A stretch of 64,000 bases of DNA from Flavisolibacter ginsengisoli DSM 18119 (GTDB lineage: Bacteria; Bacteroidota; Bacteroidia; Chitinophagales; Chitinophagaceae). A program made the position numbers and the translations under genes. The stretch covers positions 62,001 to 126,000 of the forward strand of contig NZ_FQUU01000009.1 in NCBI RefSeq assembly GCF_900129295.1, given 5' to 3'. Shown piece after piece: positions 9,533 to 49,375 of this stretch (positions within the stretch are counted from its first letter, which is position 1; every line of letters starts with the position of its first letter). The notes under the pieces are model-generated. The model had not been told where the DNA came from, ran no database searches, and saw only the letters and a program-made list of their open reading frames with translations.

Positions 9533-9564
9533 AAGGTGGTCCGTTTGTCGGATCACCTTTTTTT
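9533..9564 (+). terminator. intrinsic terminator after rpsP
   Basis: An 11-bp stem (9533-9543 with 9549-9559, one G-U pair) with loop TTTGT is followed by a run of T. It cleanly ends the rpsP transcript, so rpsP is not co-transcribed with the acyl-transfer operon that follows. Confidence 0.9.
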
Positions 9565-9761: not shown

Positions 9762-12614
9762 ATGAATAATTCAAACCAATTTTCATCCTTATATAATCAG
9801 TGTAGTTTAAATGTCCAGGGTTATAAAGCCTTTCCAACCCAGTGTGCTTCCATACCGTACTATGGACATTTATATTTTGGAGATAAGAAAGACCTGATAC
9901 TTCCTAATCAACAGGACAAACTGGAAAAAGTAGTTGAGTACCTTTCTTCCAGCCGGCATAAGTATCAACAATTCTTAAGACAAAAAGGGCGCTATCCTTC
10001 TTTAGATATTTATGCTTGTTTTCAACCTTTTAATGAGGCCTTTAAAGCATTTTACCCATTTATCAATTTGATAAAAGCATCAGTAAAGGATGGTGATGTG
10101 ATAGTCAACCTATGGGACAGGAGTGGCTGGACCGCAAATTTTTTAGCCGGGCTGTTTCCTAAACAACATATCATAACTGTATGGGAAGGTGATAAAGATA
10201 TCCTTGGCTACAGGGGATTTGATTACTGGATGTCGCCTCTAAGACAAACGAACCAAACTGTTTTGTTTGCTGATTTCTTAAGACCGTTACCTATTGAAGA
10301 TGGTATTGCTGCAGCAGTAATTGGCTTTGACCTCTTGCATAGGTTTCACCAGCCTGAATTATTAAGTGATATTAATAGAATTGCACAACCTGATGCACCT
10401 GTTATTTTCCCCCATGTGCACTTGACCAATAATATGCCTGAACCTTTCTTTGAAAGAGGATGTCGTCAATTACATGGAAACGATTACCAGCATCTGTTTG
10501 ACACGCTATCAAAAACTACCAACAGGAAAGGTTACATTTTTTCAGAACCATTTCTATTTAATTGGAATGACAAGAGCCTGGAATTGGAAATGAAGGCCCA
10601 ATCAGAGCCTGCACATACTGATTACAATGCATGTATTGCCTGGTTACCCAAAGGTGAAATTGTGCTCGAGGCCTGGCGAGGCCATTTAGAACCCGGATGG
10701 GAAAAAATGTATCTGTTGCAAAATCCTTTATTGGAAATAAACAACAGCTCTAAAACTATTGAACTAAATGAAAGGTCATTTGATAATACATTACTTTCCT
10801 TCCTGGACCGGCATCCGGTGTACGCCAATAGGATAAAAGAAACAATAGGCAGTTCAGTTACAACGCAAGTTATAGAGGTACTTTACTGGTCAAAACATGG
10901 CTTGCCACTCTGCGACATTATACAGAAAACAGGTGTGACAAAAGAAGAAATGATCCAGATGCTTCAAAAGTTCTGGGATATGGACCTTGCACAGGCTGTA
11001 CCTGTCAATGAAGCTGGATTCAGATTACAAACACTGCTGGGACAACAACAATACATCTTAGAAAGGTCTGAAGACAACTTACAAGCTTTTTGGAAGCAAT
11101 CTGTAAACTTTTATGGACAGCAGCAATGGGTTCAGGTTGCAGGTGAAGAAGGGCTAACCTATGATCAGGCGGATGAACTAATAGAGTTGCTCAAGAAAGC
11201 TTTAACAGCCCAGGGGTTGAAAAAAGGCGACCGTTTATTACTTTGCACAGGTCTTCATACAGAAACACTGCTATTATTTTGGGCAGCTGTTTCTATAGGC
11301 ATTGTTGTAATCCCTATCTCTCCAAAAGAATCGCCTTATCGCATAAAAGCTTTTATAGATTCACTTAAACCTTCATTCGCTTTAGTAGATCCAGGTCTAT
11401 TGGATACATTCTCAGGTGCAGGATGTAATTCAGTGATAATGACAGACCTTATTGCTGACCCATTATATAAGGAAGAAACATCTTTTCAAACCTGGCTGGA
11501 GCTTTCCATGGTAAAAGAAGTGCAGGTAGATGTTATTGATCCCTTATATAATGATGTTGCGGTTATATTGTGGACGACAGGATCCACCGGCAATCCCAAG
11601 GGTATACCTCTTACCCATCAACAGTTGATCCGGTCTGGCCGGTTAATGACTGAAACCTACCACTGGAAGAAAAATGACCGTTATTATGCGCTAGGTGGAT
11701 TGGAAGCTATGAGCGGATTACGACATGCAACTGTAAGCGTAGCTGAAGCAGGAGCCTGTTGCGTCATACCCAATAAGCATGAAACCATTTTTGATCATCT
11801 TGATACTATTATACAAGAAAAGATATCAATCATTACAGGCAACCCTGTTTTCTTCAGGCAATTGCTGTTAAGCGCAAAAGGCAAATTGAATAACAAGTCA
11901 ATACGACTGGCTCTTTGCACAGGCAATCAGCTATCAGCAGAATTAAGAGCATCCTGGAAAAAGGATACTGGCATACACATGTATAATTATTATGGGTTGA
12001 CCGAAACTTCCGGAATTTGTATTGCAGAACCTCTGAAATCTGAAATAATACATAAGGATAGTATTGGCATTCCGATAGACTCATTGATAAAGATCATTGA
12101 TGAAAATGGACAAACAGTAGAAAATGAACAGGTCGGGGAACTGTGTATCTATGGTGAAGGTGTATTCAATGGATATTACGAAAATGAAGAAGCAACCAAC
12201 AATGCATTAAAGGATGGCTGGTTCTATACTAAGGATATGGCAATTCAACATAAGGATGGTACCATAAGCCTTTGCGGCCGTATATCAAATATGGTTAAAC
12301 TTCCTACTGGTGAACGGGTTGATATTTCAGCCATAGAGGAAACATTAGTAAATCTAAAACAGCTTAAGGACTGGGCAGTTTGTGTTATTTCAAAAGAAGA
12401 GAAGGAAGACATTGGAGTTTTCTTTGTCCCGGAGGATGGCACTCAATACAAAGAGCAAACTGACATTATAAAAGAGCTCATAAGAAGTAAAATTGGCCAA
12501 TATGCAGTTCCTGCTTTAATACAACCTGTCAATTTCATCCCCAGGGGCAATCATAACAAGGTGCTCCATAAACAATTGATTGATCAATATTTTCAAAATA
12601 TCAAAATAAAATAG
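9762..12614 (+). CDS. Methyltransferase-like domain fused to AMP-forming adenylation domain
   Basis: This 950-aa protein has no signal or membrane segment. Residues ~100-230 look like a class-I SAM methyltransferase: VIVNLWDRSGWTANFLA in place of the glycine loop, then an acidic strand end (TVWEGD). Residues ~360-420 resemble a winged-helix spacer. Residues ~440-945 are an ANL adenylation domain: core A3 ILWTTGSTGNPKG (~602), A5 YYGLTETSG (~744), A7 GWFYTKDM (Lys replaces the usual Gly of TGD), A8 around GRISNMVK, A10 NKVLHK (~933). It has no carrier domain of its own and ends 7 bases before the adenylation-carrier gene. The substrate is unknown, and the degenerate SAM loop leaves methyltransferase activity uncertain. 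Confidence 0.8.
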   Translation: MNNSNQFSSLYNQCSLNVQGYKAFPTQCASIPYYGHLYFGDKKDLILPNQQDKLEKVVEYLSSSRHKYQQFLRQKGRYPSLDIYACFQPFNEAFKAFYPFINLIKASVKDGDVIVNLWDRSGWTANFLAGLFPKQHIITVWEGDKDILGYRGFDYWMSPLRQTNQTVLFADFLRPLPIEDGIAAAVIGFDLLHRFHQPELLSDINRIAQPDAPVIFPHVHLTNNMPEPFFERGCRQLHGNDYQHLFDTLSKTTNRKGYIFSEPFLFNWNDKSLELEMKAQSEPAHTDYNACIAWLPKGEIVLEAWRGHLEPGWEKMYLLQNPLLEINNSSKTIELNERSFDNTLLSFLDRHPVYANRIKETIGSSVTTQVIEVLYWSKHGLPLCDIIQKTGVTKEEMIQMLQKFWDMDLAQAVPVNEAGFRLQTLLGQQQYILERSEDNLQAFWKQSVNFYGQQQWVQVAGEEGLTYDQADELIELLKKALTAQGLKKGDRLLLCTGLHTETLLLFWAAVSIGIVVIPISPKESPYRIKAFIDSLKPSFALVDPGLLDTFSGAGCNSVIMTDLIADPLYKEETSFQTWLELSMVKEVQVDVIDPLYNDVAVILWTTGSTGNPKGIPLTHQQLIRSGRLMTETYHWKKNDRYYALGGLEAMSGLRHATVSVAEAGACCVIPNKHETIFDHLDTIIQEKISIITGNPVFFRQLLLSAKGKLNNKSIRLALCTGNQLSAELRASWKKDTGIHMYNYYGLTETSGICIAEPLKSEIIHKDSIGIPIDSLIKIIDENGQTVENEQVGELCIYGEGVFNGYYENEEATNNALKDGWFYTKDMAIQHKDGTISLCGRISNMVKLPTGERVDISAIEETLVNLKQLKDWAVCVISKEEKEDIGVFFVPEDGTQYKEQTDIIKELIRSKIGQYAVPALIQPVNFIPRGNHNKVLHKQLIDQYFQNIKIK

Positions 12615-12621
12615 ACCCCTG

Positions 12622-14448
12622 ATGTTTCAACAGTTATTTGTACAACCGCCTGCAAAAACTTTCCTTCAGACAGAAGATAAAACTTATTCTTATAAATGGC
12701 TGCAGCAAAGGATACTTCAAATAGCAGGGTTGTTTGATTCCCTTTCTCTTAAACAAGGTCAGCGCCTTGTATTGGCAATTTCAGACGACGTAGAAATGAG
12801 TACCCTTTTCTTAGCAGCACTGGCCAATGGTATTACAGTGGTAGTAGCTGATCCTGAATGGAAAGCTGCCAGGGCAAATGCAATCATAGGAAGGAGTGAA
12901 CCTGCATGTATTATTGCAGACAAATCTTCGCTTGATACTTGGAAATTGCAGTTAAACAGTAACTGCATTATTATACCTTTTTCAAAAACAAATGCAAACC
13001 GGCCAGCCTTATTATCAAGGTTTCTTCAAAAGAATAAAGCAGAAGCCAAAGAAGATAGCTTTAGCACTTTATTAGAGAAATCAGTTCCTGTTGCATCCCT
13101 ACCCGCCTCTATAGATCCTGAAACAATAGCCTATATAATATTCACGTCGGGAACTACTGCAGATTCAAAAGGCGTTGCTATTTCGCACAACAATCTTAAC
13201 GCACATCTATCTACTCTTCAAAAAGTTTATGGACTAACACAGGAAAGCAGCATACTGAATCAACTTTTATTATGCCATGCTGATGGGTGCATCCAGGGAC
13301 CGCTGTTATCCGTATATGCAGGTTGCACATGGCACCGGCCATTCAGATTCACAATTGAAAAAATACCTGCGCTCCTTGACTACTGCTATGCCAATAACGT
13401 ATCTCATCTATTCATGGTACCTGCCATGCTTAATATGCTAATACAGTTTTCTGAAAATTATGAAGACAGCTTTAGTTACCCGGCCTTTAATGCCTTAATA
13501 TCAGTATCTGCACATCTTGAAGGTCCGCTATGGGATAAATTTGAATCCATTTTTAAAGTACCCGTTTCCAATGTCTACGGGCTAACCGAAACGGTTGCTG
13601 GAAGCCTTTTTTCAGGCCCTTTACAAGAAACTTCATGCAAGTATACAGTAGGCAAGCCTGTTGACTGTGAAATAAGGATAATTAATGAACAGGGTGAGGA
13701 TGTTGGCAATGGAACGCCAGGTGAACTTCTTTTAAAAGGCCCCCATATTATGAAGTCCTACTGGCAGGATGAGAACCTTACGAATAATTATATAAAAGAT
13801 GGCTGGTTCTATACAGGTGACCTAGCCGCCATTGACGCCGAAGGATTTGTAAAAATCTGTGGACGTAAAAAGAATCTCATTATTTCAGGGGGGATAAATA
13901 TTCAACCGGAAGAAGTTACAGAATGTCTTTTACGTCATCCTTCTGTTTCAGAAGCCTGTGCTATAGGGCTACCTGACCATGTTTTTGGCGAAAAGCTGAT
14001 AGCTGCAATAGTATTGAAACCAGGCAGCAATGATTCATCCTTAGACCTGGTTAACTTCTGCAGGGAATACCTTGAAGAAAAAAAGGTACCTACTAAAATA
14101 TTTATAGTCCCGGAATTACCTAAAGGTGTCTCTGGCAAGGTTCAATTAAATGTATTGAAAGAGCAGCTTCTCCAGCTACATCCAAAAACGCATGAGATAA
14201 ATGGTGAATACCTTGACCAGGTATTAAACATTGCTTCAGAAGTCTTCCAGGTTCCAGTTTCTAATTTATCAGTGAATGATAATTCCAATACGGTAGCTGG
14301 CTGGGATTCAATGGCACACCTGGTATTTATAACAACATTGGAAGAAAATTTCAGCATCAGCTTTTCAACAGCAGAAGTCATAACTATGAACAGTATTCAA
14401 AAAGCCCTCAAACTTATAGAGCAAAAACATGTACCGGCCACAGCGTGA
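12622..14448 (+). CDS. Adenylation domain fused to acyl/peptidyl carrier protein (DltA-DltC-like)
   Basis: The protein is 608 aa. Residues ~1-510 form an AMP-forming acyl ligase: A3 IIFTSGTTADSKGVAISH (~172), A5 VYGLTETVAG (~317), A7 GWFYTGDLA (~394), A8 from CGRKKNLIISGG (~412) and A10 PKGVSGKVQLN with the catalytic Lys. Residues ~525-605 form a carrier domain with Ser563 in GWDSMAHL, the site for phosphopantetheine. It can therefore activate an acid and load it on its own arm. The ligase looks closer to acyl-CoA ligases than to D-alanine ligase DltA. It is the second gene of the operon, and its end overlaps the next frame. Confidence 0.88.
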   Translation: MFQQLFVQPPAKTFLQTEDKTYSYKWLQQRILQIAGLFDSLSLKQGQRLVLAISDDVEMSTLFLAALANGITVVVADPEWKAARANAIIGRSEPACIIADKSSLDTWKLQLNSNCIIIPFSKTNANRPALLSRFLQKNKAEAKEDSFSTLLEKSVPVASLPASIDPETIAYIIFTSGTTADSKGVAISHNNLNAHLSTLQKVYGLTQESSILNQLLLCHADGCIQGPLLSVYAGCTWHRPFRFTIEKIPALLDYCYANNVSHLFMVPAMLNMLIQFSENYEDSFSYPAFNALISVSAHLEGPLWDKFESIFKVPVSNVYGLTETVAGSLFSGPLQETSCKYTVGKPVDCEIRIINEQGEDVGNGTPGELLLKGPHIMKSYWQDENLTNNYIKDGWFYTGDLAAIDAEGFVKICGRKKNLIISGGINIQPEEVTECLLRHPSVSEACAIGLPDHVFGEKLIAAIVLKPGSNDSSLDLVNFCREYLEEKKVPTKIFIVPELPKGVSGKVQLNVLKEQLLQLHPKTHEINGEYLDQVLNIASEVFQVPVSNLSVNDNSNTVAGWDSMAHLVFITTLEENFSISFSTAEVITMNSIQKALKLIEQKHVPATA

Positions 14449-14452
14449 TACT

Positions 14453-15280
14453 ATGCCACCTTTAGGGTTATGGGCATTAGTAGGGGTGGCAACCATATTG
14501 ATCTTTTTAGCAACCTATCGTTTTATTGTTCTGGAGAAAGAAAAAGATTTTGACTCCAGGATAGCCTATATACAACACAAATCGGAAACTGCAGGAAACA
14601 GACCAGTAGTATTAATGCTGGGCACATCTTTATCAGAATACGGACTGGATAGTACAACGGAAATAGAAAAGCAAGTTAGCTGTATTAACAGGCAAAACCC
14701 CGTGATCATCAAGATCTGGAAGCCAGCGATACAGGTAAACCAAATGGTTGACAACCTTAATTATATAGCTTCTAAGCCTCCGCAATTATTGGTTATTGAA
14801 GCTAACATGTTTTGCTATGCTCCACGCATAACCATGCTGAATCAAACCCTGAGAGCGTTTTACAGCGCTTTCAGATTCGAACCTTTACATGAACCTTATT
14901 TTCCCGATAAAACACCAGAAGTTTACACACCTCATACAGGGAACATCGGGGACTTCCGGGATAAAACAGTTGACACCCTCCAATTGATCTCATTCAGAAA
15001 ATGGGCCAACCAACTACAGGCTTCAGGAACAAAGATCCTCCTGGTAAATTTTCCAATTGAAATGCAGGAGGAAATAAAGAAATGGAACAGCAGTGATACT
15101 ATTGCATTCAACCGGAACATCAGGTTTTTACAACAACAGTTAAAGTTTTTCTATTACAAACCATCATGTTACCTGGATTCAACAAACTTTATAGACAAGG
15201 CACATATGAATAAAAAAGGATCAAAGTTGTTCACTGCCATGATATGTAACTCTATAGCAAAAGCCCTGCAAGATCAATGA
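14453..15280 (+). CDS. Membrane-anchored SGNH-family protein (DltD/AlgX-like)
   Basis: A single N-terminal membrane segment (MPPLGLWALVGVATILIFLA) anchors a periplasmic SGNH domain. Block I is LGTSLSEYGLD, with the nucleophile Ser at the GTS. Block V is DKAHMN, giving the catalytic Asp and His in the D-x-x-H order. Proteins of this kind next to an MBOAT transfer acyl groups to or from envelope polymers (DltD, AlgX/AlgJ). The ATG at 14453 lies 4 bases after the preceding stop; another ATG at 14429 would add eight residues and overlap by 20 bases. It overlaps the MBOAT gene by 4 bases. Confidence 0.85.
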   Translation: MPPLGLWALVGVATILIFLATYRFIVLEKEKDFDSRIAYIQHKSETAGNRPVVLMLGTSLSEYGLDSTTEIEKQVSCINRQNPVIIKIWKPAIQVNQMVDNLNYIASKPPQLLVIEANMFCYAPRITMLNQTLRAFYSAFRFEPLHEPYFPDKTPEVYTPHTGNIGDFRDKTVDTLQLISFRKWANQLQASGTKILLVNFPIEMQEEIKKWNSSDTIAFNRNIRFLQQQLKFFYYKPSCYLDSTNFIDKAHMNKKGSKLFTAMICNSIAKALQDQ

Positions 15281-16389
15281 ATATTGAGTTTGTCTTACTC
15301 GCCATTATCTTAATAACTGCTCCAGTACTATGGAATGTATCCAGGTTCTGGCAAGGGAAGGTTATGATGATCTGCACCCTTCTTGTTTTTGCCTGGCTTG
15401 CTCCCTGGTCATTGCTCATCATGGTGCTTACCGCTTGCGCACAATGGCTAATCTGGAAGTATATGCCACCGGCATTAAAAACTACCGGGGTTCTATTAAC
15501 TATATGCCTTCCGCTGCTGGTGTTGTTATCATATAAGTTAGGACATAAGACTATCAATTGGATCATCCCCCTGGGTCTTTCCTATTATACTTTCAGACAA
15601 ATACATGCGGCATTTGAATGTTACAAAGGCATAATAAAGGTGCCCACCTTAGAGGAATACCTGCAGTACCTGCTGTTTTTACCAGTCATCCTTGTTGGCC
15701 CCATTCATCGCATGCCTGAATTTCAGCGCAGCCTGCGCCGCTTAAAATGGCAGCCCTCTGTTTTTTCAGATGGTATGGAGCGCATTTTGTATGGATTGAT
15801 TAAGATTAGTTTCCTTGGCAATTATTTATTTAGTGTCAAGTTCCCTCAATTAGCAGAGCATACTGACTCTGTTTTTATTAAACTATATATACAAACCATC
15901 GCCTTTACCGGTAATGCTTATGTGCAGTTTGCAGGGTTCTCCGACCTTGCCATTGGAATGGGATTAATATGGGGCATCAGGGTGATTGAAAATTTCAACC
16001 GTCCTTTTCTCGCTACTAATATGCAGGATTTCTGGACACGTTGGCATATCTCTTTATCTAGCTGGTGCAGGGATTATATCTTCCAGCCTATTATAGCTTT
16101 GTCCCGTAATCGCTGGATAGCCCTTATAATTTCAATGCTTGTACTTTCATTATGGCATGAAATATCACTTCGTTATATTATCTGGGGCATGGTACAGGCA
16201 GCGCTTGTTTTATTAACTGTTCAATCCAGGAAAACATTTCCCTCTCTTTCACGCTTTGTTAACCAACATCCAATAGGAAAATGGATGGGCCGTATATGGG
16301 TATTTCATTTATTTGCCTTTAGCTGTATTTTCATCGGGTATGAAAACATACATGCTGCAGGTGCACTGTTTAAACAACTATTTGGATAA
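15277..16389 (+). CDS. MBOAT-family membrane O-acyltransferase (DltB/AlgI-like)
   Basis: This 370-aa polytopic protein is of the MBOAT family, which moves acyl groups across the inner membrane onto an extracytoplasmic acceptor. The diagnostic DFWTRWHISLSSWCRDYIF contains conserved His257, and His294 in LSLWHEIS is the expected catalytic His. It overlaps the SGNH gene by 4 bases (ATGA), and its stop overlaps the next start by one base (TAATG). DltB receives its acyl group from a carrier protein, and a carrier is encoded two genes upstream, so the acyl donor is likely the carrier thioester. Confidence 0.93.
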   Translation: MNIEFVLLAIILITAPVLWNVSRFWQGKVMMICTLLVFAWLAPWSLLIMVLTACAQWLIWKYMPPALKTTGVLLTICLPLLVLLSYKLGHKTINWIIPLGLSYYTFRQIHAAFECYKGIIKVPTLEEYLQYLLFLPVILVGPIHRMPEFQRSLRRLKWQPSVFSDGMERILYGLIKISFLGNYLFSVKFPQLAEHTDSVFIKLYIQTIAFTGNAYVQFAGFSDLAIGMGLIWGIRVIENFNRPFLATNMQDFWTRWHISLSSWCRDYIFQPIIALSRNRWIALIISMLVLSLWHEISLRYIIWGMVQAALVLLTVQSRKTFPSLSRFVNQHPIGKWMGRIWVFHLFAFSCIFIGYENIHAAGALFKQLFG

Positions 16390-16526
16390 TGTATAGCTGG
16401 CTATTAAAACATACTTCAAAAAGAATGGCTAACCTGCTCATATTTGCATGGTACCTGTTATTGGTATTGCTGGTACTTTTCTCCTTAAACTTTGAACCAG
16501 GAAGGTTCCGTTATTTGCAGTGGTAA
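16389..16526 (+). CDS. 45-aa single-pass microprotein, DltX-like
   Basis: ATG at 16389 overlaps the MBOAT stop (TAATG). The 45-residue product has a basic N-terminus (Lys7, Lys11, Arg12), one membrane helix (about residues 14-35) and a short C-terminus ending F40-R-Y42-L-Q-W45. Positive charges at the N-terminus predict N-in/C-out, placing Tyr42 on the periplasmic side. DltX of Gram-positive dlt operons is also ~50 aa with one helix and a C-terminal F-x-Y-x-x-F whose Tyr carries the acyl group between DltB and DltD. The size, position after MBOAT and C-terminal pattern all agree. The functional link is inference. Confidence 0.75.
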   Translation: MYSWLLKHTSKRMANLLIFAWYLLLVLLVLFSLNFEPGRFRYLQW

Positions 16527-24736: not shown

Positions 24737-25177
24737 TCATTTTTTATAAATAGCCTTAGTGGTTACAGCTATACGGTTCCATGCATTTATAACCACTATT
24801 TGCATGATCAGTTTGGCTGTTTGCTGCTCACCAAAAATAGCAACCACATGATCATAGGTTTCATCAGTCACACCTTCTTTTGATAACAGCGTCACTTCCT
24901 CCGTTAATTGTAAAGCTGCCCGCTCAGCTTCTGAAAAAAGATGGGACTCTTTCCACACAGCCAAAGCAAATAAACGCCTTTCAGATTCACCCAGCTTTAT
25001 CGCATCCTCTGTATGCATATCAACACAATAGGCACACCCATTTAACTGTGAAGCCCTGGTCTTTATCAATTCTTTCAACAAAGGATCTATGGTGGTTTCC
25101 TTAGTATAATTCTCCAGGGCCATCATAGCCTTATAGGCCCCGGGCTCTTTTTCATACATTGATAATCTTTTATTCAT
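24737..25177 (-). CDS. AhpD-like carboxymuconolactone decarboxylase family protein
   Basis: The 146-aa protein carries the redox motif C-x-x-C followed by His (NGCAYCVDMHTEDA, ~residue 51), diagnostic of AhpD-like alkylhydroperoxidase proteins. EYRERL-type proton-relay residues are represented by ESERRLFALAVWKES. It probably acts as a thiol-disulfide or peroxidase protein. The start overlaps the stop of the upstream PEP-mutase-like gene by 8 bases, so they form an operon. Confidence 0.9.
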   Translation of the reverse strand: MNKRLSMYEKEPGAYKAMMALENYTKETTIDPLLKELIKTRASQLNGCAYCVDMHTEDAIKLGESERRLFALAVWKESHLFSEAERAALQLTEEVTLLSKEGVTDETYDHVVAIFGEQQTAKLIMQIVVINAWNRIAVTTKAIYKK

Positions 25178-26024
25178 CTGTTTTACTTGATTTACTGATC
25201 AAAGCTTTAAGGTAATCGCTGGTCACTTCATTAGCTGTTATTGTTTCCAGGCCTTTATAACTTTTTAATTCTTCGGCCAGGTTTTTCATAGCACGCAGAG
25301 CGACCTTTAAAAATGAAGGTCCAAGACTGAGCCTGGCTACTCCCATAGACTGCAGGACTTCAATTTCCGGAATTCCAGGTATAGTAATAATATTTATTGG
25401 CAATTGCACATGTCTCACTACTTGTTCAATATCTCCTGGCTGACTCATTACAATAGGATAGAAACCATCTGCACCCGCATCTTTATAGGCCTTCCCTCTT
25501 TCTATTGTTTCTTTCAGTTTTTCTTCCGCAGTGGAAAATAAACCGGCATGAATAAAAACATCCGTCCTGGCATTTATAAAAAGAGGAATGCCCTTTTCAT
25601 CCGCCAGTTTTCGAATAAGCGAGATCTTCCTGCATTGCACATCTGTACCATTCAGTGTATGTGTCCTGGTATCAGTATCTTCTATGTTGATGCCAACAAT
25701 TCCTGTATCCAATAACTGTATGATATTCTCTTGCAATTGCTCCTCATTGCTAGCGTAGCCCGATTCAAAGTCGGCGGTAACAGGCACGCTCACACTGTTA
25801 ACTATTTTGCGGAAGAGGTCTAAGAGGGCTGTCAGAGGAATATGTTCACCATCGTAATATCCATTGCTATAAGCAATAGAGGCGCTGGCTGTGGCTACAG
25901 CCTTATACCCTATTGATTCCAATAAAAGTGCCCCTAAAGGATCCCATATATTAGGCAGTATTAGCAGCTCCCCATTATGGTGCAGTTGATGAAATATGAC
26001 AGCTTTTTCTTTTTGTGTAACCAT
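25170..26024 (-). CDS. Isocitrate lyase / PEP mutase superfamily protein
   Basis: The 284-aa protein is of the ICL/PEPM superfamily. Visible are the TIM-barrel strand VTADFESGYAS with the Mg-binding acid, VGINIEDTDT, and LFINARTDVFIHAG. The usual K-x-C-G-H catalytic loop of isocitrate lyases is absent, as in the oxaloacetate-decarboxylase-like subgroup. The reaction likely cleaves or forms a C-C bond of a small keto or hydroxy acid. It is coupled to the AhpD-like gene. No phosphonate genes are nearby. Confidence 0.85.
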   Translation of the reverse strand: MVTQKEKAVIFHQLHHNGELLILPNIWDPLGALLLESIGYKAVATASASIAYSNGYYDGEHIPLTALLDLFRKIVNSVSVPVTADFESGYASNEEQLQENIIQLLDTGIVGINIEDTDTRTHTLNGTDVQCRKISLIRKLADEKGIPLFINARTDVFIHAGLFSTAEEKLKETIERGKAYKDAGADGFYPIVMSQPGDIEQVVRHVQLPINIITIPGIPEIEVLQSMGVARLSLGPSFLKVALRAMKNLAEELKSYKGLETITANEVTSDYLKALISKSSKTDE

Positions 26025-44709: not shown

Positions 44710-45882
44710 TTATTCTGTTGTAGTTCCTTCACCACTAAGATCAAATACAAGTGAGAAACGAAGTGTATTGGCTAATGGGTTTTGGTTCACACCACTATTA
44801 ACAGGAATAAGGTAAGAGAAGTTCAATCCAAAAACATTGTACTTGATACCTACACCTGTTGTAAAATAACGGCGGTTACCCTTTGTTTTATCTTCATAAA
44901 AATAGCCGGCACGCAGTGCGAACTGGTTATTATACCAATATTCTGCACCTAGAGAAGCCTGGAATTCTTTGATCTCTTCAGACATGCCGCCTGGAGCATC
45001 TCCAAACGAACTAAACCAGCTACCAACTACACTCTTGGTCCGGTAGTTATTAAAGTTGATCGTATCCTGTTGTGTTGGCGGATTGGAAGGTACTGGTGGA
45101 GTAGGAACCATCAATTTATTCAAATCAACACCAAATGTGATCTTATTGCTTTCATCTATGACCTTAGTATAAGTGGTACCAATGCCAAAGTTGGCAGGAA
45201 TGAAATCTTTCTGTTCTGCATTATCCGTGTAAGATATTTTTGAACCCAGGTTGGTCAATGCCAATCCAAAGGCCCATCCCTGGCCAGCTTCAGTAAGTGC
45301 CCTGTAATACAAACCAATATCACCAGCTACAGCACTTCCTGCCTTATATGTATTGCCATTGCCACTGTAACCACTGGCAAGATTGGAATAGATATATTTT
45401 AATCCAACACCTATACCCATCTTTTCAGAAAGCTTACGGGAATACCCAAGGTCAAATCCAAATTCGCGTGGATTTGAAGTATTTAAAGGATTGCCATTAT
45501 TATCGGTGAACTGGATACTACCTAAATTGAAATAACGCAATGAACCAGAAACCGCCTGGTTTTCGTCTAATTTATAATAACCGGCTAGTGAAGCCAGGTA
45601 CACATCATTAACCAGTTTTTTCAACCATGGAGTGTAGGTTACATTCACACCTGCTACCGATTCATTAAATGGAACTTTTCCGAGATTGAAAAACGAAGCA
45701 CTTGCATCAGGACTGGTAGCCAGTGATAATTCACCCATTGCACCTGCCCGGCCATCAGGTGAGATTCTTAAAAAAGGTACAGCGGTGGTTACAACATTAA
45801 TTCTTTCCTGGGCATATGTGGGAAGGACGCCTGCGATCAATAGCGTAAGAGCAGTTGTCAGTCGTAATGCAGTTGATTTCAT
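44710..45882 (-). CDS. porV: Type IX secretion outer-membrane protein PorV
   Basis: A 390-aa FadL-like 14-strand outer-membrane barrel. It has a signal peptide (LRLTTALTLLIAGVLPTYAQ) and the PorV start VPFLRISPDGRAGAMGELSLATSPDA, which is strongly conserved in the family. PorV acts as a shuttle, passing T9SS cargo to the PorU sortase. The gene follows porU with a 73-base gap on the same strand, the usual Bacteroidota order. Confidence 0.94.
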   Translation of the reverse strand: MKSTALRLTTALTLLIAGVLPTYAQERINVVTTAVPFLRISPDGRAGAMGELSLATSPDASASFFNLGKVPFNESVAGVNVTYTPWLKKLVNDVYLASLAGYYKLDENQAVSGSLRYFNLGSIQFTDNNGNPLNTSNPREFGFDLGYSRKLSEKMGIGVGLKYIYSNLASGYSGNGNTYKAGSAVAGDIGLYYRALTEAGQGWAFGLALTNLGSKISYTDNAEQKDFIPANFGIGTTYTKVIDESNKITFGVDLNKLMVPTPPVPSNPPTQQDTINFNNYRTKSVVGSWFSSFGDAPGGMSEEIKEFQASLGAEYWYNNQFALRAGYFYEDKTKGNRRYFTTGVGIKYNVFGLNFSYLIPVNSGVNQNPLANTLRFSLVFDLSGEGTTTE

Positions 45883-45955
45883 AGTTCTTGTTTATAAAGT
45901 GCGTGAAAATATACAGTTTTGGTTATAAAAGGAAAATGTTTGGTTGTTTATACAG

Positions 45956-48900
45956 CTAAAGAATGACGAGTCGTTCCCACTTTTCGGCCGTAGTTCCATA
46001 TGATGTTCTGATCTTAATACGGTATACATAGACACCTCTTCCTAATTTATTACCGTACTCATCCCGGCCATCCCATAGAATGTCATTGGAACGGTTTCCT
46101 TCAGAATTTATTGTCTGTGTGAGGGTTTTTATAAGCTTGCCACTGATGGTAAAGACCTCAACTTTAGCATACAGATCTTCGAATGGATGGTTATGTTCAA
46201 ACCAAAAACTGGTGGAAGTAGTAAAAGGATTAGGATAATTCAATACGTGTTCCAATTTTAGTTCACCTGTTGCAATGACAGTAAATTCCAGTACATATTC
46301 GCTGGAGTTATTGGTAACATCCCATGCTTTTATTTTTAATGTATGATGCCCCGCAGCAAGTTCAGGTAATTGAAAGCGAACAGTTCCTTTTTGGAAGTTA
46401 TCTAGGTCTGTTTCATAAAAGTTGTTTAATACATAGTATTTATTGTTATCATTATCCAGGGTAGCTACCAGGTCATGGCCTATTCCGGAACTTACCGTAT
46501 TAATACCAGATGAATCCACCAGCTTCACCAACAATATAGGTATTGCATTGGTAATGCTGCCATTGACAAACTTTTCATCATTAAGATAAGCCCTGATCTC
46601 TGGTCCCTCGTGATCTTTATTAGCTGTTGTATCTATTCCACCTATGATAACATTAGAAGAATAGCCACCTCCCCCTATGTTACCATTTTCCGCATAGAGA
46701 CTTAGCTTACCCTTTCCATATTGGTAATTAATATCCTTTGGCAGCCTGAAGCGAAAAAAGAAACGCCCATTCTCTACTGAAGCCTTTCCTTTAAAAAGAA
46801 TGTTGGCCTGCTGTGTAAAACCTACGGGAAAACTACCAGGGTCATTGCCAAGAGTAGTAATGGTTTCCGGCTTATCAAATAAAGATAAATAAGCTGTACC
46901 ACTAAAGCTGCTTAAAGGATCATCATGCAGGTCAGTAATAAAGCCTTCGACAGACACAAACTCTCCGGCACTTAAAGTATCTATGGAGCCCTGGATATCC
47001 CTGCCATTAATGGCTTTGACTACAGGTTTCAATTCCGGGAATCCCAAACGCATGGCCGGATCCCCTAGTAATACAAACTTCCTGTTATTAATCACATCTC
47101 CGGAATTTAAATAGGTGAAATTCTTGGCATCCATTAAGGCTGCTCCCAAAGATTTGTAATGACCATTGCTATCAGGTTTAAGGGCTGCCTTGAGGTAGTT
47201 TTCATTAATGATCCTGTTGCTATAGGCAAACACTACCCTTGATGTGGTCATTAACCCTATTCCACCTGTTTTAGGCCTCACAAGAATATTTTCTCCCAGG
47301 GAGTTTACCAGTGGATTATCATAAGGCGCAAAATCACAAGTAGCCGTAATAAACAAGGGCAGTTTAGTTGAGTTTTCCCATTTATTAACTATAGACTGGT
47401 CAAGCACCACTTCTTCTGCCAGCCTTTGAGACCCTCCATGTCCGCTATAATTCCATATCAGGGTGCCAGTATAAATGGAATTGTCCACCTGGATGTTGGC
47501 TTGTGGATAACGCCCTCCTGCTGACCCACTCTCCTGCCTGAATGCATCAAGGTAAATCTTCTGTGTATTAAAAAGGGGAGCTTCAGTAGCGATGGCAGTT
47601 GCAAGGGTTTCAGCATCCTGCAGGTGCAGGTTATTATCCTCATCGTCCGCTACAAGGTCTATATTATTTCGCCAGGGACCCAGGGAGGCAGCGGAATGAT
47701 AAGTGAATACCTTTTCTACAAAATTCTTTGCTTCAACTAAATTCTTTGCAGGTACTCTCCCAATTCCAATATCAAGGGTATTGATGATCAAACCCGAGTT
47801 TATATCCTCATTCTCATCTAAAAAACCGTAAAAATCATCTGATGTATAGGTGCTCAAAGGATCTAAAGAGGAATTACTTTCATACACCGGAACTAAGGCC
47901 GTATTATTAGGTACCCGGTTTTTATAATCGAAAGATCCTTTCCCAAAAAGTAAGAGATACTTTCCGGAATCTTTCCAGGAAGTCCTGTAACGGTCATAGA
48001 ACATCTTGACGAAATTGCGCAACGCAGACGGGTCAGGAGATCCACCAGAGAATTCATTGTATACCTGCTCTGTAGTAACCACAATGGTCTTTAATTGATC
48101 ATGCTGCTCATGAAATGCCGCTAAACGCTTTGCTTCGGACAGGAATTCTGGGGGAGTAATGATGAAATAGTCCGCGGGACCGCTAGCATGAAGGTTTTGA
48201 TTGGCCACCTTTCCTTCCACCAATGGCGACAAATAATTATTTGAAAAGGCAAAATATTCTTTTAATTGTATGGCATCATTCGTAAACCACAATTGATTAC
48301 CTGATAAGACACTTTTCATAGTTACGGGCTGGGCCATGTCGGTAACATCCCAAACCTGTGTACGCGCATCTGTATTGGATATTACATATTCAACAGAAGG
48401 TGTCCCTACACTTCCCAGGTCTCTGAATGGCAATTGTCCGGAGGGGGGCATTTCCAGGCTGCGCCGGTAAAATAGTTCAAACCAGTTCAGCCATCCCTGG
48501 CTATTGAAACTCCCGGGCGTAAAGTTGAGTGTCACAACCGGGTTGGGAGAGGCAGTGAAATTATCTTTTTTCTCCACCTGCTGGGCAAAAGGGTCTAAGA
48601 TACCAGTACCTACTCCTGGAACAGGTATTTGTTGGACAGGTATGCCATTTACAGATATTGAAAATGATGAGCCAACGTTTAAAGAACGGGCCACTACATT
48701 AGATGTTATCCTTGCAGGTTGGCCTGGAATAATGCCTGGTATGGCAATATTATAGTTTAGTGCCAGGGTTTTACCCGGGGCGTTGGCCATTTCTTCTCCA
48801 AACCATTCCTTACCACTTGCCAGGAAATTGATCGTGTCAAGCTCATGAAAATAATGGTCATCAAATGAACTTATAGTCTTCTGTGGAACAGGAGAACTGA

Positions 48901-49375
48901 TTTGCTGTTTGACCCTTTTACCAACTCCACCTACAGTGATAAAAAAATAAGCCTTATCGCTGTATAGGTTCTTAATATGGTGATATTGCCCGCTAGTGGA
49001 ATCCAGTGACCACGGGTTGGGACCCCTGGTATAGAATAATATTTGATCCTGGGCATCAAACACTCCATCTCCTCCATCATTAACCATAATGGCTATTTCC
49101 TCCAGGTCGTCAATTGAACTTCCGGCATTTGATTCCGGAAGCATACCTCCCCCATTCCCAAAAATTCTTACCTGGCCAGAGGGGATGGAACCCTGGATGC
49201 CTAAAGCTGCCAGGAATGAGGGGTCAATCTTATAAATTCCCTCCCTGTCAACGCTGAATTTATACCAGTTTCCAGTAGCTAAAACAGATGAAGATTTGTA
49301 CGTTCTTTGGGCCTTTACCCATAGCATTGAAGCTGTCAAAACACTCAGGATCAGTAGCTTTGGAATGGAGAACAT
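45956..49375 (-). CDS. porU: Type IX secretion sortase PorU
   Basis: PorU removes the C-terminal signal from T9SS cargo and attaches cargo to A-LPS at the cell surface. The 1139-aa protein has a signal peptide, a gingipain-like C25 cysteine peptidase domain with His ~645 in WNYSGHGGSQ and Cys ~678 in ITATCDFAPYD, and a C-terminal secretion-type domain (LEHVLNYPNPFTTST, GRGVYVYRI). This is a normal length for the family. It pairs with porV downstream, and gldJ lies divergently upstream. Confidence 0.94.
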   Translation of the reverse strand: MFSIPKLLILSVLTASMLWVKAQRTYKSSSVLATGNWYKFSVDREGIYKIDPSFLAALGIQGSIPSGQVRIFGNGGGMLPESNAGSSIDDLEEIAIMVNDGGDGVFDAQDQILFYTRGPNPWSLDSTSGQYHHIKNLYSDKAYFFITVGGVGKRVKQQISSPVPQKTISSFDDHYFHELDTINFLASGKEWFGEEMANAPGKTLALNYNIAIPGIIPGQPARITSNVVARSLNVGSSFSISVNGIPVQQIPVPGVGTGILDPFAQQVEKKDNFTASPNPVVTLNFTPGSFNSQGWLNWFELFYRRSLEMPPSGQLPFRDLGSVGTPSVEYVISNTDARTQVWDVTDMAQPVTMKSVLSGNQLWFTNDAIQLKEYFAFSNNYLSPLVEGKVANQNLHASGPADYFIITPPEFLSEAKRLAAFHEQHDQLKTIVVTTEQVYNEFSGGSPDPSALRNFVKMFYDRYRTSWKDSGKYLLLFGKGSFDYKNRVPNNTALVPVYESNSSLDPLSTYTSDDFYGFLDENEDINSGLIINTLDIGIGRVPAKNLVEAKNFVEKVFTYHSAASLGPWRNNIDLVADDEDNNLHLQDAETLATAIATEAPLFNTQKIYLDAFRQESGSAGGRYPQANIQVDNSIYTGTLIWNYSGHGGSQRLAEEVVLDQSIVNKWENSTKLPLFITATCDFAPYDNPLVNSLGENILVRPKTGGIGLMTTSRVVFAYSNRIINENYLKAALKPDSNGHYKSLGAALMDAKNFTYLNSGDVINNRKFVLLGDPAMRLGFPELKPVVKAINGRDIQGSIDTLSAGEFVSVEGFITDLHDDPLSSFSGTAYLSLFDKPETITTLGNDPGSFPVGFTQQANILFKGKASVENGRFFFRFRLPKDINYQYGKGKLSLYAENGNIGGGGYSSNVIIGGIDTTANKDHEGPEIRAYLNDEKFVNGSITNAIPILLVKLVDSSGINTVSSGIGHDLVATLDNDNNKYYVLNNFYETDLDNFQKGTVRFQLPELAAGHHTLKIKAWDVTNNSSEYVLEFTVIATGELKLEHVLNYPNPFTTSTSFWFEHNHPFEDLYAKVEVFTISGKLIKTLTQTINSEGNRSNDILWDGRDEYGNKLGRGVYVYRIKIRTSYGTTAEKWERLVIL

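Follow-up and report, generated by a model that had tools for sequence, protein, structure and literature searches.

A five-gene operon of Flavisolibacter ginsengisoli DSM 18119, located in a 64,000-nucleotide stretch of contig NZ_FQUU01000009.1 (positions 62,001 to 126,000 of assembly GCF_900129295.1, hereafter the window), probably represents a second, independent lineage of acyl export through a split, carrier-fed MBOAT-SGNH system, an analogue of the Dlt system but with a cargo other than alanine. In order, its genes code for a ligase with a methyltransferase-fold domain (A1), an adenylation-carrier fusion protein (A2), an SGNH-fold protein, a split-type MBOAT and a 45-amino-acid (aa) microprotein. 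An earlier reading made from the sequence alone (the sequence-only reading) had described five close-packed rightward genes at 9762-16526, overlapping or separated by gaps of at most 7 bases, and all five open reading frames (ORFs) were confirmed (Table 1). The arrangement is not due to chance: its order recurs across phyla, and the 45-aa protein is itself conserved, with one tyrosine that never varies.

In the Dlt system, DltB moves D-alanine from the carrier DltC to the tyrosine of the FXYXXF motif of DltX, from which DltD then takes it. The same acyl-shuttle motif occurs in PatA, and in PatA/PatB it is fused to the MBOAT, the donor being acetyl-coenzyme A (acetyl-CoA) (PMC12148441). By analogy with the biochemistry of both systems, we propose that A2 would adenylate a carboxylic acid other than D-alanine and load the acyl group as a thioester on the phosphopantetheine at Ser563 of its own carrier domain. 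Through His294, the MBOAT would then hand the acyl group over to the microprotein, where Tyr42 of the C-terminal motif, on the periplasmic side, would receive it from the carrier. The SGNH protein would in turn accept it on Ser67 and pass it on to a hydroxyl group of an acceptor in the envelope, for which a glycan is the likeliest candidate. A1 would play an auxiliary role by supplying or modifying the cargo. Because the Dlt roles are matched, the gene order is conserved, and the residues expected for catalysis and for the shuttle are present, activation, carrier loading and transfer across the membrane, as proposed in the sequence-only reading, seem the best account of the operon.

The microprotein is a single-span protein ending in FRYLQW, a variant of the FXYXXF motif. 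Tyr42 is invariant in all 17 microprotein homologues, and F40, two residues before it, is kept in 16 of them. Given the charged N-terminus and hydrophobic middle of the protein, the positive-inside rule puts the motif on the putative periplasmic side. No family matched the microprotein of the window, and the Pfam DltX model PF12459, which matched 6/6 genuine DltX controls, matched none of the 17 microproteins; comparison of the microprotein profile with DltX gave a weak match (probability 28). The SGNH protein was predicted by a structure model to adopt an SGNH fold with one N-terminal transmembrane helix, and its triad Ser67/Asp256/His259 is invariant in 14/14 sequences, while no Pfam family, DltD included, matched the protein.

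The MBOAT matched the MBOAT family with 83.6 bits and, over its full length, the DltB model TIGR04091 with 166 bits, below the cut-off of 375. Its His294, invariant in 13/13 sequences, aligns with His336 of DltB (6bug) and, like DltB, this short, split-type protein lacks the C-terminal extension and the motif of fused MBOATs. In a tree of 39 rows, the MBOATs of the system formed one clade (100/99) and DltB another (100/100). A first, larger tree had placed both split forms on one side (93, Shimodaira-Hasegawa-like approximate likelihood-ratio test only), whereas the 39-row tree put DltB nearer the fused forms; the two trees thus disagree on how the MBOAT groups are related, and each, like the ligase tree, comprises tens of rows, some of them on long branches.

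The adenylation domain of A2 (residues 8-506) matched the AMP-binding family with 212 bits, and its carrier domain scored 19.9 against PF00550, just below the cut-off of 20.8. Ser563 is the serine of the GWDS motif of the carrier domain; the WDS attachment site is present in all 16 aligned A2 homologues and in one further homologue, and the host genome encodes a phosphopantetheinyl transferase family protein. A2 scored 115 bits against the Escherichia coli carnitine-CoA ligase CaiC compared to 50-70 bits against DltA. Its best match in the PDB was oxalyl-CoA synthetase, the closest solved structures being oxalyl- and malonyl-CoA synthetases, and DltA was not among its best 60 PDB matches. In the ligase tree, A1, A2 and DltA formed three separate clades. 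All 18 A2-type ligases carry H-[ATSN]-D-G at adenylation motif A4 (H-A-D-G in A2 itself), which aligns without gaps with H-V-H-G of oxalyl-CoA synthetase and H-I-D-C of CaiC; DltA has F-D-L-S instead. Judged by sequence, A1 and A2 both resemble acyl-CoA ligases more than DltA, which makes D-alanine an unlikely cargo and strengthens the earlier claim that the cargo differs from that of classical Dlt. If the invariant Asp of A2 is a pocket residue, it would, we conjecture, suit a substrate bearing an amino, ammonium or hydroxyl group.

These comparisons also bear on whether the operon could be a true, if divergent, Dlt system of a diderm cell, in which D-alanine or some other small alpha-amino acid is attached to a glycan or an outer-membrane acceptor. 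Its part list is identical in role to that of Dlt, the MBOAT matched the DltB model from end to end, two of three alignments set the invariant Asp of A2 against Asp197 of DltA (the third placing it one residue later), and the Bordetella dra locus, as cited in PMC9410548, offers a diderm precedent for D-alanylation. We nevertheless consider this explanation quite improbable, as the MBOAT lies far below the DltB cut-off in a clade of its own, the DltX model recognized only the genuine controls, and the operon has two ligases, both nearer the acyl-CoA ligases, with H-x-D-G in A2 rather than the F-D-L-S of DltA.

Three observations weigh against carrier-fed export by a Dlt-analogous set. The last residue of the microprotein motif varies (W, L, F, Y, I or N), whereas it is F in Dlt and PatA; the SGNH orthologues are as little as 12-36% identical and match no Pfam acyltransferase family; and the substrate code of A2 is not readable, the register of its Asp relative to Asp197 of DltA shifting by one residue between alignments. 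Owing to this one-residue ambiguity, deriving the cargo from the substrate code was given up as a firm call. Nor does an Asp at the next residue argue for a beta-amino-acid cargo, as it is no signature of beta ligases; beta-amino-acid ligases retain the same Asp as the alpha ones (PMC11253843). Identification of the cargo from neighbouring genes was also dropped, since no neighbour recurs in most loci. Among individual neighbours, a class III aminotransferase gene, a possible cargo gene, overlaps the operon start in L035 (L035:8324-9700), with a relative near the Saprospiraceae copy (L042:11517-12875), and, in the copy of the Pseudomonadota genome G806, a radical SAM protein gene (L133:10615-11568) follows the microprotein gene by 23 bases.

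Relatives were sought in 84,980 named genomes and by six-frame searches of further genomes and of plasmids. The gene set was found together in at least 12 other genomes, comprising several Bacteroidota families, Janthinobacterium, another Pseudomonadota genome and a Sulfitobacter plasmid, confirming that the operon is a real, though rare and patchy, unit. The full order including the methyltransferase-fold ligase is present in L035, L037, L038 (5' end lost at the contig end), L039, L041 (Pedobacter changchengzhani), L043, L045, L048 (Janthinobacterium) and L049, and L040 agrees with it as far as its contig extends. In L047 and L133 the order is unchanged but the methyltransferase domain is missing from the first ligase, the first ligase of L142 is A2-like and lacks a carrier, and L044 and the Sulfitobacter plasmid locus L120 contain only A2-SGNH-MBOAT-microprotein. 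The copy in G127 is interrupted by a transposase gene. The same gene order, for which the sequence-only reading had proposed a search of other Bacteroidota, thus exists in several families of that phylum, but it is rare and patchy, has copies in Pseudomonadota and is not a Bacteroidota trait. Likewise, the five-part set holds as a unit for its adenylation-carrier/SGNH/MBOAT/microprotein core and not for the first ligase, without which the core also occurs.

The methyltransferase-fold ligase was detected in 1 of 396 genomes of the host family (eight others of the genus included) and in 3 of 375 genomes of the phylum, and the MBOAT clade was seen in 2 of the 181 Pedobacter-family genomes and in 1 of the 74 from the G806 family. 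The genes flanking the operon copies vary between loci. Most plasmid relatives were partial and about 30% identical; the one true relative, L120, lies in a glycosyltransferase cluster, with a NeuD-like acetyltransferase gene upstream and a reductase-like gene downstream. Its position among glycosyltransferases hints at a glycan acceptor for this copy. The patchy presence fits horizontal spread of the cassette; base composition offers no hint of a recent arrival.

The linkage of A2 to the core bears on a further explanation, in which the MBOAT, SGNH protein and microprotein would use an acyl-CoA (e.g. acetyl-CoA, as PatA does) and both ligase genes would be unrelated passengers. The well-described non-Dlt MBOAT/SGNH pairs are indeed all acyl-CoA-fed (PMC12148441). 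Moreover, the set is split over two loci (L126, L042) in the Saprospiraceae genome G781, where A1-A2 stand on a different contig from SGNH-MBOAT-microprotein. However, A1, A2 and an additional SGNH gene are still present in trans in G781, and A2 lies immediately 5' of SGNH-MBOAT-microprotein wherever else a clade locus was read with its 5' sequence intact, irrespective of the phylum and also on the plasmid. As split MBOATs are elsewhere characteristic of carrier-fed DltB, we regard passenger ligases as very improbable.

A1 contains a class I methyltransferase-fold domain (residues ~98-300), a winged-helix-like segment (~363-413) and an AMP-binding domain (459-928; PF00501, 192 bits). The N-terminal region had no Pfam match in the host protein, and Methyltransf_11 matched 3 of 11 A1 orthologues. 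An AlphaFold2 model built from 11 orthologues (predicted local distance difference test score, 79.6) was matched by Foldseek to class I S-adenosylmethionine (SAM) methyltransferases with a probability of 1.00. The methyltransferase-like domain noted in the sequence-only reading is thus borne out at the level of the fold and not at that of the usual glycine-rich SAM loop (motif I), which is absent: the GxGxG glycines are lost, and W118, R120, G122 and W123 are invariant in 11/11 orthologues in their place. The domain keeps Glu142, the acidic residue that follows the next strand, together with the block FPHVH..N..P. A Rossmann methyltransferase fold is therefore predicted by the model, but methylation is unproven since the usual loop is missing. 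At motif A4, A1 carries mostly M-S-G-L-R, with no Asp equivalent to that of A2. A1, which occurs in most but not all copies and is dispensable in some loci, is probably auxiliary.

The pairing of two ligases with one carrier could alternatively reflect assembly on the carrier, in which A1 and A2 would build a two-part or modified acyl unit, through amide formation by A1 or methylation by its methyltransferase fold, for export to a lipid or protein acceptor instead of a glycan. VinN and VinM, which work with the carrier VinL, set a precedent, the second of these adenylation enzymes acylating an amino acid already bound to the carrier (PMC11284099). In addition, an A2-like ligase without a carrier stands in the place of A1 in L142, and the aminotransferase gene of L035 overlaps the start of that operon. 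The absence of A1 from L044 and L120 and of its methyltransferase domain from L047 and L133 argues that A1 is not needed for the core, and the methyltransferase loop has lost its glycines; we thus judge this alternative unlikely. Somewhat unlikely too, though worth considering, is a novel class of envelope decoration by a cassette patchily spread among diderm bacteria. Its two ligases and methyltransferase-fold domain would build on the carrier an acyl group other than alanine, modified and perhaps cationic or N-methylated, for export through an acyl-Tyr microprotein shuttle unrelated in sequence to DltX. Under such a scheme, the H-x-D-G pocket motif, partly common with H-I-D-C of carnitine-CoA ligase, would fit an amino, ammonium or hydroxyl substrate.

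A terminator-like hairpin stands between rpsP and the operon, suggesting that the latter is probably a transcription unit of its own, and the genes 3' of the operon are on the opposite strand (Table 1). A search for sigma-70 promoters gave no excess over shuffled sequences, and no Bacteroidota-type promoter pattern was found upstream of the operon. Recent transfer could not be read from guanine-plus-cytosine content, which is 0.39-0.40 in the operon and about 0.40 in its surroundings, and was dropped. Elsewhere in the window, a PorV gene adjoins a large C25 peptidase gene (PorU-like) at 44710-49375, both type IX secretion parts, and a phosphoenolpyruvate phosphomutase family protein is encoded at 25170-26024.

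Table 1. Features of the window operon, its upstream boundary and the plasmid-borne core.
Feature	Position	Strand	Basis and remarks
Terminator-like hairpin 3' of rpsP, upstream operon boundary	9533-9559	+	Consensus match only
A1 (P0001), methyltransferase-fold/AMP-binding ligase	9762-12614	+	ORF, 950 aa
A2 (P0002), adenylation-carrier fusion	12622-14448	+	ORF, 608 aa; 7-base gap after A1
SGNH-fold protein (P0003)	14429-15280	+	ORF, 283 aa; 20-base overlap with A2
Split-type MBOAT (P0004)	15277-16389	+	ORF, 370 aa; 4-base overlap with SGNH gene
Microprotein (P0005)	16389-16526	+	ORF, 45 aa; 1-base overlap with MBOAT gene (TAATG)
Adenylation-carrier/SGNH/MBOAT core with unannotated 53-aa microprotein (IIYIDL)	L120:4650-10299		Sulfitobacter pontiacus plasmid NZ_CP049347.1

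No paper describing the operon was found in the open literature, subscription journals lying outside the search. A 2025 paper reported that neither a carrier protein nor a DltX-like microprotein belongs to non-Dlt MBOAT/SGNH systems (PMC12148441). Contrary to this generalisation, the operon family has both and is not Dlt, so carrier-fed split shuttles would exist in at least two lineages with an open range of cargoes. The compact five-gene set allows the type of donor (carrier or CoA) to be related to the position of the motif (split or fused), and suggests that the envelope of certain Bacteroidota and Pseudomonadota contains a so far unrecognised acyl ester. The window family may not exhaust the variety of split shuttles built from non-Dlt parts, as a third form is present in L134 (7937-14163; G862, Pseudomonadota). 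This locus codes for a TIGR03099-like pyridoxal phosphate (PLP) decarboxylase, a 309-aa protein, a ligase with an SFD motif, a 374-aa protein in the SGNH position, a 47-aa microprotein ending in FRYAGF and placed 5' of the MBOAT gene, and an MBOAT outside the window-family clade. Pfam-confirmed DltX genes were also seen beside DltB-like genes in Chloroflexota and Verrucomicrobiota (L073, L074, L092 and L105), together with DltA-like genes in L074, L092 and L105, and a Bacteroidetes metagenome-assembled genome contains another short MBOAT of uncertain kind (L071:1146-2387).

Compared with Gram-positive Dlt, the operon likewise unites a ligase, a carrier, a short MBOAT without a C-terminal motif, an SGNH protein and a separate microprotein with a tyrosine motif. 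It differs in that its MBOAT belongs to a separate clade, its microprotein falls outside the DltX model, its ligases are of another subfamily, its carrier is fused to A2 whereas DltC is separate, it has an extra methyltransferase-fold ligase and its hosts are diderm. By sequence-based membership, the MBOAT is not DltB, the microprotein not DltX and the ligases not DltA. The earlier claim of a counterpart for every Dlt part accordingly holds for role, order and catalytic and shuttle residues, and fails, except for the MBOAT, for specific families, since the microprotein misses DltX, the SGNH protein is shared at the fold and triad level only and the ligases are of another subfamily. PatA/PatB and AlgI-type fused pairs share the MBOAT His, the acyl-Tyr motif, the SGNH triad and envelope acylation, but carry the motif on extra MBOAT helices and use an acyl-CoA donor, in contrast to the separate genes and carrier found here. 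The host provides an internal contrast with a second, fused MBOAT (L001, G000:C23) ending in SSFIYFQF and thus bearing FIYFQF; the gene directly upstream of it resembles an SGNH partner. A Dlt-like set is present in a diderm, as had been claimed, but a Dlt-type modification would not be new to diderms: the Dlt-like dra locus of Bordetella, as cited in PMC9410548, is reported to D-alanylate an outer-membrane component, thereby resembling the operon as a Dlt-type modification in a Gram-negative cell and differing from it in the reported D-alanine, as the ligases of the operon are not DltA-like. VinN/VinM similarly combine two adenylation enzymes with one carrier, but in a polyketide starter pathway without MBOAT/SGNH export, and VinN keeps the amino-binding Asp D230. 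Finally, A1 matches the exosortase-A-associated ligase TIGR03098 (146 bits, cut-off 592), and the distant L134 has the TIGR03099-like decarboxylase, whereas the window operon contains no PLP decarboxylase.

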